64,000 nucleotides of DNA from an uncultured Candidatus Nitrosopumilus sp. GTDB lineage: Archaea; Thermoproteota; Nitrososphaeria; Nitrososphaerales; Nitrosopumilaceae. A program made the position numbers and the translations under genes. The stretch covers positions 372,001 through 436,000 of the forward strand of contig OX638319.1 of the NCBI GenBank assembly GCA_951812655.1, written 5' to 3'. Shown here in pieces: positions 4,826-10,453 of the stretch. Below the pieces are notes generated by a model that was given only the letters and a program-made list of their open reading frames with translations, searched no databases and had not been told where the DNA came from. Numbering within the stretch: the first letter of the stretch is position 1; every line of letters starts with the position of its first letter.

Positions 4826-7477
4826 CTATCCCGACGTGCAACCGCTGTATCCACATTCGATGCACATACTGCAACCCTCAACGAATACAAGGTTATTTTT
4901 GCACGTTGGACACAGACGATCCTCTGAAACCTCATCTATCTTCGGGGTCTCAAGCTTAATTTCCTCATCATGAGCCTTCAATGCCAACGAAGCGGTGACC
5001 TGCGACTTGATGTACTGGTTTGTGATGTTCGCAGTGATAAAGTCAGTCATGTACTGGCTCGGAGTAACCTCAAACGTCTTTGTGGCAGTTTCACTTGTCA
5101 TGTGCAGGACCTGCTTGTGTCTGGAACCGTCACGATAGACGGTCATTCCCTTCAGACCTATTTCGTGCGCAAGTAGATATGCCGATTTTACATCCTCCAC
5201 TGTGACATCGTAGGGCATGTTGATTGTCTTTGCTATTGCGTTTCCAATCCAGTCCTGCCATACTCCCTGAGCCATCAGATGATCAGCCCAGTGAATGTCC
5301 ATTGCAGTGACAAATACATCCTGCATCCATTGCGGAATCTCGTCTAATCCCTTCAGTGATCCATAGTTGTCTGCAATCTTTGCAAGAATTTCATCGTTGT
5401 AGAGTCCTTCTGCTCTGAGTGCCTCCTCAAGAATCTTGTTGGTGTAGAAGAATCTTCCAACTGTTACTCTCTTCTCAAACACCAGTGCAAATGCGGGTTC
5501 CATTCCGTTTGAACAGTCAGCAATCATGGACAAAGTGCCTGTCGGTGCGACAGTCGTGGTAAGCACGTTTCTGATTCCAGATTTTTGGATCTTTGCAATC
5601 AGCGGATCCCACTCATACGAATGAGAATCCTTGGGCTTCTCATAGTATCCGGATATCGGAATCTTTCCTTCCGGATACTCTGTATTTGAGCATAGTGGGA
5701 ACTCTCCACGAGAATTGGCAAGTGCCACACTCTCCTCCATGGAGTAGTAGGTCAGGGCTTCGGAAAGCTTTGACTGTAACTCGTAACCCTCCTTGGAATT
5801 ATACGGAATCTTTAGCCTGTACAAGAGATCTGCCACTCCCATTACTCCCAGTCCTATTCTGCGTGACTCTTTTGATGCGACGTTGATTTCATCGACAGGG
5901 TAGTTGTTTACGTCAATGATGTTATCCAGGAATCGCGTGGTCTTTCGAATGGTTTCCTCATATCCCTGCCAATCAAACTCGTATGAACCGTCTGCTTGTC
6001 TCTTTGCAAGATTTACCAAGTTGATTGATCCGAGGTTGCAAGACTCGTAAGGATAGAGGCTTTGCTCTCCGCACGGATTCGTTGCTCTCAAGGGAGCTTG
6101 TCTTGCCTTGGCAAATACGTTGTACTTGTTGATTTGATCAAAGAAGATCAATCCAGGTTCGGCGCTCTTCCACGCAGATAGTGCAATCAGGTCAATGAGA
6201 TGATGTGCGTTGATTTCCTTTACGGGTTTTTTATCGCGAGGACTGCGCAGCACATAGTTGCCGTCCGTTGTATTTACAAGTGAATGCCAAAAGTCTTCCC
6301 AGATGCCGACGCTTATGTTGAAGTTTTCCAAAACGCCGGGCTCTGTTTTGTTTGTGATGAATTTTTCAACATCAGGATGCCATGCCTCGATGATTCCCAT
6401 GTTTGCACCGCGTCTCTTGCCGCCTTGCTTGACGACTTCAGTTACGGTGTTGATGATGTTCATAAACGATACCGGACCCGATGCAACACCTGACGTGGAT
6501 GCAACGATGTCGCCTTCCTCACGTAGATCAGAGTAGTTGATTCCCACTCCCCCGCCGGACTTGAAGATTAATGCGGCATCAGAAGTCGACTTCATGATTT
6601 CTTCCATTCCATCATTCATTCCAAGTACAAAGCATGCGGAAAGCTGACCCAGTCTTCCGCCTGCATTCATCATTGTTGGTGAATTTGGCAGAAAGTCCTG
6701 GCTTGTCATCATTTCAAAGTACTCGGTAATTTTATCTGAATAGCCTTCGAGTTTTTTCGCTGCCAGTAATGTCAAAAGATCTTTGAAGCTTATCTTCATC
6801 TGACCCTTGTTTGCAAGTGTCACATAGTGATGAATCAGCGATCTAAAGTGCCATTTGTTAAAGAAATAGATTCCAACTTTGAACTTGTAGTCAAACGCAT
6901 CAAGCTTTTCAAGGTATGATTTTGCCTCATCAACATCTTGCTTACTGCTTCCTGATTTGTCAAATACCTGCGAATCGTAAAGCATGTCGCCTATACCGAC
7001 CAGAATTGCCACCCTCTCGAACATCTGAGTAGGAGACTCTACGATCTCGCTTTTTCCGTTCCTGAACAGATATCTTGAGGCCAGTACGCGAAGACAGTTC
7101 AGATCAAACTTCTTGGAGACGGGATCAAGTGCCTTAAGATTGAGCACTCTCATCTTTTCGTCTCGTAGTTTTCTTCTTTCGTGTCTGTAAACGATGTATG
7201 CCTTTGCGATGTTACTGTTTCCGCTGTCAATCAGCGTTGACTCTACGATATCCTGGATGTCCTCTACTGTAGGTACACGAGAGCTCGTGAATCCCTGTTC
7301 GACTAATTTGTTGACTACATCTTCTGCTAGTTTGTCGGCTATACCACGGTCGGCTTTAGAGGTGGCAGCCAGTGCCTGATAAATGGCATTTGAAATTTTG
7401 TCTTTATTGAAAGCCGTTACTGCGCCACTGCGCTTGCGGATCTCATTGATCGTATTTTCTATCTGTGAATTGTCCAC
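4826..7477 (-). CDS. nrdJ: Adenosylcobalamin-dependent (class II) ribonucleotide reductase
   Basis: Reduces ribonucleotides to deoxyribonucleotides using a B12-derived radical. An N-terminal ATP-cone (about residues 10-110) is followed by the alpha/beta barrel with LSACFVLGMNDG near residue 277, the active-site NPCGEQ near residue 467 (Asn, radical Cys, Glu) and TTTVAPTGTLSMI near residue 640. The C-terminal tail is Cys-rich (CPTCKNN, CSMCIECGYSGC) and acts in redox shuttling or zinc binding. I place the start at GTG 7477, preceded by GGGGAG 7 bases upstream; a longer in-frame ORF to 7552 adds sequence unlike the family. That gives 883 aa. Confidence 0.95.
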   Translation of the reverse strand: MDNSQIENTINEIRKRSGAVTAFNKDKISNAIYQALAATSKADRGIADKLAEDVVNKLVEQGFTSSRVPTVEDIQDIVESTLIDSGNSNIAKAYIVYRHERRKLRDEKMRVLNLKALDPVSKKFDLNCLRVLASRYLFRNGKSEIVESPTQMFERVAILVGIGDMLYDSQVFDKSGSSKQDVDEAKSYLEKLDAFDYKFKVGIYFFNKWHFRSLIHHYVTLANKGQMKISFKDLLTLLAAKKLEGYSDKITEYFEMMTSQDFLPNSPTMMNAGGRLGQLSACFVLGMNDGMEEIMKSTSDAALIFKSGGGVGINYSDLREEGDIVASTSGVASGPVSFMNIINTVTEVVKQGGKRRGANMGIIEAWHPDVEKFITNKTEPGVLENFNISVGIWEDFWHSLVNTTDGNYVLRSPRDKKPVKEINAHHLIDLIALSAWKSAEPGLIFFDQINKYNVFAKARQAPLRATNPCGEQSLYPYESCNLGSINLVNLAKRQADGSYEFDWQGYEETIRKTTRFLDNIIDVNNYPVDEINVASKESRRIGLGVMGVADLLYRLKIPYNSKEGYELQSKLSEALTYYSMEESVALANSRGEFPLCSNTEYPEGKIPISGYYEKPKDSHSYEWDPLIAKIQKSGIRNVLTTTVAPTGTLSMIADCSNGMEPAFALVFEKRVTVGRFFYTNKILEEALRAEGLYNDEILAKIADNYGSLKGLDEIPQWMQDVFVTAMDIHWADHLMAQGVWQDWIGNAIAKTINMPYDVTVEDVKSAYLLAHEIGLKGMTVYRDGSRHKQVLHMTSETATKTFEVTPSQYMTDFITANITNQYIKSQVTASLALKAHDEEIKLETPKIDEVSEDRLCPTCKNNLVFVEGCSMCIECGYSGCTSG

Positions 7478-7897
7478 TATAATCTCCCCGACAAGGATAT
7501 GATCAATATGGCTATAAACTGTTTGTCGGTTTTTCCTGAAACATCTGTCCAATTAAATTGACTACGCTACGATGTGCATCAGAGTGGTGTCAAATACGAT
7601 ATTCTTTGAACATTCACATGATGATCGCATGAAATTTCTTTGATTTTGAAAGGAACAGGAAAATATGCTATACCTAACGAGCACATCATTATTTGTTGAC
7701 TGTGAATACCACATGAAAGTTTCAAAAAGACGGTCCTAAAGAAAATTTCATGCTGATAACAAATTTGCATAATCTGCATAGTCGTTACAAATTAGAGTCA
7801 TGAAAGTGTTGAAAATAAAAAACGATGATCGCAGAATCCGCATCCGAATGAAAAATCAAAAGAGGTTGCCACCCAGGAGGCTTTTAATCTGTAGATC
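7478..7897. other. Intergenic region between nrdJ and the NrdD-like gene
   Basis: About 420 bp without a convincing gene. A minus-strand reading frame at 7579-7779 has no start context or recognisable product. A 36-codon basic frame on the plus strand near 7800-7907 overlaps the neighbouring gene end. GC-rich sequence around 7865-7882, followed on the minus strand by a T-rich run, is a plausible end of transcription for the NrdD-like gene. The nrdJ promoter should lie just upstream of 7490. Confidence 0.5.
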
Positions 7898-10135
7898 CTA
7901 TACGACGTAAGGGGACTTGCATTTTGGACACTTGTCCTCAAAGGGTTGATCCTTGAAACCGCATTCCCCACAAATTGCCACGTGTTTTACAGGTTTGAAG
8001 GAAGGAACAAGCTCGGATGCCTTTTCAATGGATTTCTTGATTTCCTCAACTTTTGCATATTTGTCAATATCCAACGTAACAAGCAGTCCACCATTGAGCA
8101 ATTTCGAAAGTTTATTGCATTCGGAGATGACCTCGCTTTTGGGAGTATAGTCAGAGATATCTGATGCTTTGATTGTCATTCCCTGCGAATAGAAATCAGC
8201 ATCCATCATGTTCAAGGAGGAATTCTTTCCATATTTCTCGCCATCAAGGGTCGCAAAACGAGTGGATCCTTCAGTCTCAGTCATGGAAATTGCCACAACA
8301 TCTCCCAATTCTTTGCCTTTTTTCGTACCTACGTCAACTGCAGTCTCAATGACTTTGTGAAGAATTTCCCGGCCTGCCTTGTTGTCTTGGAATCCAAGAA
8401 TGTTGAAGACCGCCTCTCTTAGTCCGACCAAATTTACGACAAGAGACACGGAGCTTCTTTGCATGTACTGAGTATTCTTGGCAAGGATTGGATTGAGTCC
8501 TCTCCTGGTGAGATCCGAGATTTCTTTCTTTCTTTGTGTCATTGAAGCTAAAGCGGGTTTTAGAAGCAACGCAAGTCTTGCTCTGAAATAGGTTTCATCT
8601 TTGTTTGATTCAAATGCCAATCTTGGAAGGTTAATTGAAACGGATTGTAGTGCAATGGAAAGCGGACTAGAAACCTTGGTGGATCCATTTGTGATTCCAT
8701 AGCTTGATGTCTGTCCTTTTGCAAACATTACTTTTCCGCCGATTAAAATTATTTCTGACAAAGCCTGAGACACGTCAGATAGTTTTCCTTTGTCAGCATC
8801 AATTACCAAACCAATTTTTGGAATTGGTGTAATTTCTGCATAACTTTTGTATGCGTTAATTATAGAGCTGATTATTTTTGCATCTGACCCCAGTTGCAAA
8901 CGAATGGATACGCCTGTACTGGTTTTGTTGTATTTGGAAGTTGTTGACGCAGTTGCAAATGCATTGGTTAGTTTCTGTTCAAGTTCTGGTAAGGATTTTG
9001 AATGTTTTGCAAACAGTGAAACCAATCCATCAAGTACAATTTCTTGTGAGGCTTCTTTTGAGAGAAGTGCAATGACGACAGATAACGAACTTGTAATATC
9101 TTCAAGCTGTTTTGATGCAGGAATTCTTGAGACATCAAGATATTTTCCGCCAAGATCAACTCCGTCTTCTATCAGCTCCTTGACATTTACAAATATTGTA
9201 TCGGGAATCATTGACCAGATTCCAGGATTTGTGATGTGCAGATCTCCAGAAAGATGCGAGTCTGCGACATCCTTTGGCAATACGTTTGTAAGAAGATGTT
9301 CTGCAAATACTCTCTGGCCAGTATTGAACAGCAATCCGTCTGCACCGTTATCCACTTTATCCAAATTAGATATCATCTCTTTGACATCATGTACGGGCAA
9401 GCCCAGGCGTGCGAGTTTGTTTCGATATTCCTCATGACCGTGTTCTAAAAGGACGGAATTCACCATTTCTCGTATTAATGAGCCTGTAAGGTACGTAGTC
9501 TGATATTTGTAGATCCTATTTTCGACTTCTTCGGTAATCTTTTGTGCTAGTTCCAATGGAAGGCTTCCTTCGCTTACCAAAGACTGAATGATTTTGTGGG
9601 AATTAAACTCCTCGATGGACTCAGAAGTGGTCCTGACATACATTTTGCCACTCTCTATAATAGATCGCTCTTCAATCTGTCGGGCCAAGCTTAAAACAAG
9701 TTTTCCAAGATTTGTGATTGTATAACGTCTTTCAGATTTGTTAAGTGCAACAAGTGATTGTCTAAGTAGTTTTCTCAAATGATATGCGAATTTGCCACTC
9801 TCTTTTTTTGATTTGAATCCGGCAAGAGATTTTAATTCGGAATAAGTCAAAGGGCCTTTGGAATTCAATATTCTAAGAATGTCAATTCTATTTGGGCTTG
9901 CCATGACAGAAAAGATCATCCTGACACGTTTTGAAGTAGAACGCATTATGCCGCCTCTTTCAGATTCGGAGTCGATGTCCAAATCAGAATCCAAGTCAGA
10001 GTCGATGTCCAAATCAGAATCCAAGTCAGAGTCGATGTCCAAATCAGAATCCATAGACAATTCCTCTTTGCTTGATTTCATTGTTGTTTGTGCATCTGGG
10101 GAGTAAATAAGACTTGTGACTAGATCTTTTTTCAC
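7898..10135 (-). CDS. Winged-helix / ATP-cone / degenerate NrdD-like regulator
   Basis: Up to 745 aa. In order: an acidic Ser/Asp/Leu repeat (about 27-58), a winged-helix domain (about 68-150, MASPNRIDILRIL then RYTITNLGKLVL), an ATP-cone (about 165-248), a region of class III ribonucleotide reductase (NrdD) type (about 250-715) and a zinc ribbon CGECG...CPKC at the end. The protein stops right after the ribbon, so the glycyl-radical loop is missing. The only Cys outside the ribbon is in SECNKL, so no thiyl-radical Cys is evident. I infer a nucleotide-sensing transcription regulator, perhaps of nrdJ. The start is uncertain: GTG 10135, or ATG 10054 or 9946, each ATG with GAGG upstream. Confidence 0.8.
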   Translation of the reverse strand: MKKDLVTSLIYSPDAQTTMKSSKEELSMDSDLDIDSDLDSDLDIDSDLDSDLDIDSESERGGIMRSTSKRVRMIFSVMASPNRIDILRILNSKGPLTYSELKSLAGFKSKKESGKFAYHLRKLLRQSLVALNKSERRYTITNLGKLVLSLARQIEERSIIESGKMYVRTTSESIEEFNSHKIIQSLVSEGSLPLELAQKITEEVENRIYKYQTTYLTGSLIREMVNSVLLEHGHEEYRNKLARLGLPVHDVKEMISNLDKVDNGADGLLFNTGQRVFAEHLLTNVLPKDVADSHLSGDLHITNPGIWSMIPDTIFVNVKELIEDGVDLGGKYLDVSRIPASKQLEDITSSLSVVIALLSKEASQEIVLDGLVSLFAKHSKSLPELEQKLTNAFATASTTSKYNKTSTGVSIRLQLGSDAKIISSIINAYKSYAEITPIPKIGLVIDADKGKLSDVSQALSEIILIGGKVMFAKGQTSSYGITNGSTKVSSPLSIALQSVSINLPRLAFESNKDETYFRARLALLLKPALASMTQRKKEISDLTRRGLNPILAKNTQYMQRSSVSLVVNLVGLREAVFNILGFQDNKAGREILHKVIETAVDVGTKKGKELGDVVAISMTETEGSTRFATLDGEKYGKNSSLNMMDADFYSQGMTIKASDISDYTPKSEVISECNKLSKLLNGGLLVTLDIDKYAKVEEIKKSIEKASELVPSFKPVKHVAICGECGFKDQPFEDKCPKCKSPYVV
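9969..10053. repeat. 30-bp in-frame tandem repeat, about 2.8 copies
   Basis: Copies begin at 9969, 9999 and 10029 with no mismatches visible. Read on the minus strand they encode the decapeptide SDLDIDSDLD repeatedly, giving an acidic N-terminal extension on the NrdD-like protein. It lies upstream of an alternative start at 9946, so it may be translated only from the longer starts. Confidence 0.9.
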
Positions 10136-10140
10136 CGATT

Positions 10141-10298
10141 ATGATCAGTTTCGTTGCAAACGCGAAAACGATCTCGCGTGAAGATCTTCATGATCAGTTT
10201 CGTTGCAAACGCGAAAACGATCTCGCGTGAAGATCTTCATGATCAGTTTCGTTGCAAACGCGAAAACGATCTCGCGTGAAGATCTTCATGATCAGTTT
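10141..10298. repeat. 49-bp tandem iterons, three perfect copies plus an 11-bp partial
   Basis: Full copies start at 10141, 10190 and 10239; a fourth diverges after 11 bp at 10288. Each unit holds three GATC sites, the 10-bp palindrome GAAGATCTTC and an ACGCGA/TCGCGT inverted repeat with an 8-nt spacer. The array fills the gap between the tiny zinc protein's stop and the longest start of the NrdD-like gene. There are no spacers between units, so it is not a CRISPR. An operator array or a mini-satellite are the main readings. Confidence 0.92.
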
Positions 10299-10453
10299 TC
10301 TTGTACATCAAGTGAAAATTCGGATGTTGAAAGTTTCTGTCCACATGACGGACACTTGCCATTAGATGACTTGAGTACGTCTTTTAGAGATTTTAGCATC
10401 TTCATGTTAGTAATCTTCTCCCCACATTTACCACAAGTAATTTCTACAGACAT
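10292..10453 (-). CDS. 53-aa zinc-ribbon protein
   Basis: ATG 10453 to TGA 10292, 53 residues. The CGKCG at residues 7-11 and CPSCG at residues 34-38 form a classic two-knuckle zinc site separated by a lysine-rich helix (NMKMLKSLKDVLKSS). The spacing and small size suggest a zinc-binding or nucleic-acid-binding adaptor; no named family was recognised. Its stop codon lies inside the last partial iteron. It is the first gene upstream of the NrdD-like regulator, in the same direction, so both may share a transcript through the iterons. The sequence upstream of the ATG is very AT-rich and could hold a TATA box near 10480. Confidence 0.75.
   Translation of the reverse strand: MSVEITCGKCGEKITNMKMLKSLKDVLKSSNGKCPSCGQKLSTSEFSLDVQEN

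Follow-up and report, generated by a model that had tools for sequence, protein, structure and literature searches.

In bacteria, ribonucleotide reductase (RNR) genes are repressed by NrdR, a protein in which a zinc ribbon is joined to an ATP-cone and which is tied to the balance between ATP and dATP; archaea rarely have it (PMC9110341). Here we describe a protein encoded in a 64,000-nucleotide stretch of contig OX638319.1 (hereafter the window) from an uncultured Candidatus Nitrosopumilus sp., in whose whole genome the NrdR model TIGR00244 found no match. The protein resembles NrdR in that both join an ATP-cone to a presumed DNA-binding module and both are tied to RNR genes. It differs in that NrdR binds DNA by its zinc ribbon and has no reductase body, whereas this protein combines a winged helix with a complete dead NrdD and has its ribbon at the C-terminal rather than the N-terminal end. 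With the class III reductase NrdD (TIGR02487/PF13597) it shares a homologous fold, an ATP-cone and a C-terminal ribbon, but it lacks the catalytic cysteines, the glycyl-radical loop and any above-cut-off NrdG, and a winged helix has been added. The added domain, at the N-terminus, is matched by the DUF7347 and HTH_20 models and weakly by those of ArsR type. Unlike typical regulators of that last type, which are short and stand alone, the present protein has this domain in fusion with a cone and a reductase. Our search of open-licence papers found no description of the family. Enzymes serving as regulators are already known, as are ATP-cone regulators; what appears to be new is this architecture, its origin and its change of partner.

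We consider it likely that the protein is a pseudoenzyme transcription factor controlling the adjacent RNR gene, sensing nucleotides through its ATP-cone and possibly through its dead body too. With NrdR missing from the genome and rare in archaea, such a regulator would bear on how dNTP supply is controlled there. If the reading is true, a former enzyme has been taken over as the regulator of its own pathway; its origin would be traceable to duplication of an intact NrdD, and a change of RNR-class partner would be visible in living genomes.

Architecture and catalytic loss

The gene occupies positions 7898-10135 of the window on the (-) strand, as do all of its domains given below, and forms a single open reading frame of 745 aa without internal stops. 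Translation probably begins at the ATG of residue 19 (position 10081), because a TATA-like box just upstream is common to relatives, which would give a protein of about 727 aa. An acidic DSDLDI repeat lies in the N-terminus (9962-10060); it varies in length in Nitrosopumilus relatives and is missing in most other lineages. The winged helix spans residues 70-152 (9680-9928), where Pfam DUF7347 (40.9 bits) and HTH_20 (32.4 bits) both match at residues 74-148, and is rich in basic residues (18 K/R against 4 D/E). The ATP-cone follows at residues 163-250 (9386-9649; PF03477, 34 bits against a cut-off of 25.8, residues 165-237), and the class III reductase fold at 7985-9310. Here the Pfam NRDD match (88 bits, cut-off 26.2) aligns residues 493-741 with profile positions 276-529 of 562, with more NRDD similarity N-terminal of that segment. 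Against the NrdD equivalog TIGR02487 the protein reaches 85 bits, far from the cut-off of 326. The zinc ribbon (7910-7984), with its CxxC...CxxC at residues 722-739, forms the end of the chain. Pfam and fold comparison thus agree with the earlier note, which had read a winged helix, an ATP-cone, an NrdD-type region and a zinc ribbon in one chain.

The fold assignment draws on an AlphaFold model built with 45 relatives, in which most of the NrdD-like part is modelled with high confidence and the N-terminus with low confidence. The first 36 Foldseek matches to this model were all class III RNRs (best E 6e-14), and T4 NrdD aligned with a TM-score of 0.62 over the target, so that structure prediction and comparison with NrdD, as had been proposed, point to a class III fold over most of the chain. 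Searching solved structures with the single sequence gave insignificant matches and a profile search was needed; the profile of 36 orthologues finds NrdD structures by sequence with an E-value of about 6e-15. For the cone, the top Foldseek matches were NrdR cones, with weak E-values; the model of winged helix plus cone is of low confidence, and for that reason we do not rely on these matches. The low-confidence N-terminal models count against the regulatory reading.

The loss of catalytic residues is evident in alignments with intact NrdDs, which keep all three catalytic features wherever their sequence is complete. The first active-site Cys is missing in 47/47 family members, and the thiyl-Cys column holds a Cys only in the near-identical L230 and L241, where the context differs. 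The glycyl-radical loop (RVxGY after the zinc ribbon) is absent from all nine class members checked, in keeping with the earlier observation that the chain stops at the ribbon. Of the five cysteines in the protein, four lie in the ribbon and the fifth is Cys673 (SECNKL), as had been noted. Cys673 was considered as the catalytic residue and rejected, being kept in only 8/36 orthologues, in keeping with the earlier judgement that no thiyl-radical site is evident. In four outgroup members (L237, L251, L252 and L256) a vestigial glycyl-loop tail carries a Gly without the catalytic Cys; these tails are possibly relics of decay.

It had been proposed that the regulatory reading would fall if a glycyl-radical loop were encoded nearby, if a paired NrdG were present or if homologues lacked the winged helix. 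No separately encoded loop was found nearby, and the protein itself is the sole NRDD protein in the genome. Searches of the genome with the NrdG and NrdG2 models (TIGR02491, TIGR02495) returned radical SAM proteins far below cut-off and none above it; the best of these is QueE-like, an assignment we take from its signature. The winged helix is conserved in homologues, as described below.

The consequence for annotation is a practical one. Pfam labels this protein as an anaerobic RNR, and a homologue from the outgroup falls just short of the NrdD cut-off (325.6 against 326.35 bits), so that annotators could attribute to aerobic ammonia oxidisers an anaerobic reductase which these organisms lack.

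Distribution and origin of the family

Orthologues occur in 277/300 genomes of the class, Nitrosopumilus and Nitrosarchaeum among them. A profile search across the phylum matched 238/300 genomes, many of them in other classes with full-length proteins of 740-780 aa, although canonical NrdD will account for part of the weaker matches. Judged by this spread of sequences, the family is old. No homologue was found in the viral contigs searched. All 36 orthologues in the alignment have the winged helix, as do outgroup members, and Pfam detects the ATP-cone in 34 of the 36. Mean column conservation across 45 Nitrosopumilaceae-level sequences reaches 0.999 in the winged helix, against 0.973 in the cone and 0.81-0.92 in the NrdD body, making the winged helix the best-conserved part of the protein; it is almost identical in Nitrososphaeraceae.

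In a quick tree of 52 proteins, made without bootstraps and with an assumed root, the candidate regulators form one clade (SH-aLRT 100), whose sister is a single catalytically intact NrdD subfamily, joined with support of 100. In four loci of the outgroup (L232, L238, L241 and L255) the gene directly downstream of the candidate regulator belongs to that sister subfamily, an arrangement that fits tandem duplication. We infer that an ancestral archaeal nrdD was duplicated. In one of the two copies a winged helix would then have been added at the N-terminus, and both active-site cysteines (the first Cys and the thiyl Cys) would have disappeared together with the glycyl-radical loop, while ATP-cone, zinc ribbon and reductase fold were retained.

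The cone itself gives a mixed picture. Its KRDG phosphate-binding motif has become VRTT or VRTS, which we counted against the regulatory reading; part of this variation also occurs in active NrdDs of the sister subfamily that are encoded next to the candidate regulator. The Glu, Asn and Lys that follow the KRDG position are kept, as are the Thr and Arg of the second motif, residues whose roles we presume from E. coli NrdA. That the dead body has been retained suggests that it does something.

Linkage to RNR genes

The next gene downstream is nrdJ (4826-7552, (-) strand, with a likely start near 7480), which encodes an adenosylcobalamin-dependent class II RNR (TIGR02504, 707.9 bits against a cut-off of 399.95) with its own ATP-cone, the only other cone in the genome. 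The earlier note had asked whether this neighbourhood is conserved, and it is, strongly: nrdJ is the next gene downstream in 102 of the 111 loci whose downstream sequence reaches far enough (same strand in 99, convergent in 3; median gap about 200 bp), many of these loci being closely related to one another. A selection made for diversity has nrdJ in this position in 27/37 class loci, with NrdJ proteins about 75%, 43% and 30% identical to that of the window. In some other lineages an nrdD takes the same place: among 38 loci from other classes, the downstream gene is an intact nrdD in 5 and nrdJ in 1. The candidate regulators of L230 and L241 are near-identical and are followed by nrdD genes of different NrdD subfamilies. 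At the level of sequence, the partner RNR class changes and the adjacency persists. Against the regulatory reading, an adjacent RNR gene is lacking in 10/37 of the diverse class loci and in most loci of the outgroup, and the deep-branching class members L091-L100 are among those without one. Since the gene nearly always sits beside a working RNR gene in these archaea, it is most likely a switch for making the building blocks of DNA. The earlier proposal of an enzyme recycled as an RNR regulator thus gains support from adjacency and from the lost catalytic sites, with DNA binding and nucleotide sensing as its inferred parts.

A second association is seen outside the class, where pyrB, often with pyrI, lies no more than three genes away on one side in 18/38 outgroup loci (L219-L256), which hints at an ancestral nucleotide-biosynthesis cluster; this, too, was set against the regulatory reading.

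Promoter elements and proposed control

In 79-80 relatives the nrdJ promoter contains GCGATCATCG, TATGAAsTTCATAGTAGCG and GTGTCAA-N5-TTGAAC, all upstream of the TATA box, which lies at 7510-7519 in the window (GTTTATAGCC). The candidate operator, traced by footprinting, lies at 7546-7583 on the (-) strand; in relatives it reads TATGAAsTTCATAGTAGCGGTGTCAA-N5-TTGAAC, and the window copy is degenerate (GATGCACATCGTAGCGTAGTCAATTTAATTGGACA). A further conserved element, GCGATCATC(G), lies at 7615-7631, on the same strand as the TATA box and the candidate operator. The best-conserved 20-nt window of the nrdJ promoter is the dyad, whereas the corresponding window falls on the TATA region in two truly intergenic promoters used for comparison; this contrast, and the near-restriction of the composite element to the nrdJ promoter in relatives, speak for the regulatory reading. 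In Nitrososphaeraceae-type nrdJ promoters the dyad scored no better than shuffles, although the winged helix there is almost identical; this, like the degenerate window copy, was counted against that reading. Given this and the degenerate window copy, we treat the conserved dyad as a candidate operator, a lead rather than a result.

One must consider what else such a protein might do. It could act on protein rather than DNA, the dead body contacting NrdJ or NrdD as an allosteric partner or inhibitor and the winged helix serving protein contacts or anchoring to DNA, with no role in transcription. Retention of the whole reductase body, when a cone would suffice for sensing, and the tight linkage with RNR genes would both be explained, but we think this improbable: the winged helix is conserved far above the body, NrdJ already has a cone of its own, and a switch between NrdJ and NrdD would be hard for a specific protein interface to withstand. 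Alternatively, the protein may regulate nucleotide metabolism more broadly, for example pyrimidine synthesis via pyrBI together with RNR, with nrdJ as one target among several. A DNA-binding protein with a nucleotide-binding domain could indeed serve both pathways, and the proximity of pyrB described above would then be meaningful. However, pyrB is on the opposite strand, and its position may be old synteny around a lost nrdD, given that L230, L232 and L241 keep both. Moreover, when 13 genomes were scanned for the composite promoter element, allowing up to 3 mismatches, 8 had it at the nrdJ promoter and only two occurrences lay elsewhere, and we regard this broader role, too, as unlikely.

Least credible of all, and in our estimation very improbable, is a class III reductase or glycyl-radical-like enzyme that is still active with unusual residues. 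The full NrdD fold and the Gly in the vestigial loop of the four outgroup members speak for it; against it, both catalytic cysteines are missing in nearly all members, the Gly-bearing ones included, the genome has no NrdG above cut-off, and the host, which we take to be an aerobic ammonia oxidiser, has nrdJ.

Our results are consistent with a pseudoenzyme that represses or activates the neighbouring RNR gene. In the mechanism we propose, ATP or dATP would be bound at the cone, and perhaps nucleotides also at the old allosteric or substrate sites; binding would shift the oligomeric state of the regulator, after which its winged helix would engage the promoter of the RNR gene next to it, here nrdJ. 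The simplest version is one in which the RNR gene is repressed at high dATP. By analogy with NrdR, dATP at the cone may favour the DNA-binding form (PMC9110341), and on the same analogy the protein would be expected to report the ATP/dATP balance. A wider generalisation seems to us about evenly poised between right and wrong: that tandem-duplicated dead NrdDs are RNR regulators throughout this archaeal phylum, reading the nucleotide pool at cone, effector and perhaps substrate sites and setting, through the winged helix, transcription of whichever RNR class is used, following the partner as it changes between nrdD and nrdJ.

Upstream of the gene, three exact 49-bp tandem repeats (10141-10297) lie between its promoter and a small zinc-ribbon gene. 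The suggestion that these iterons are targets of the protein found no support, and they were rejected as operators: three copies occur only in this genome and are not conserved among relatives. As the closest relative has one diverged copy, the repeats are a recent local, strain-specific triplication. The small gene itself, a 53-aa open reading frame (MSVEITCGKCGEKI...) at 10292-10453 on the (-) strand, lies just upstream of the candidate regulator and is conserved in the relatives L006, L107 and L108.
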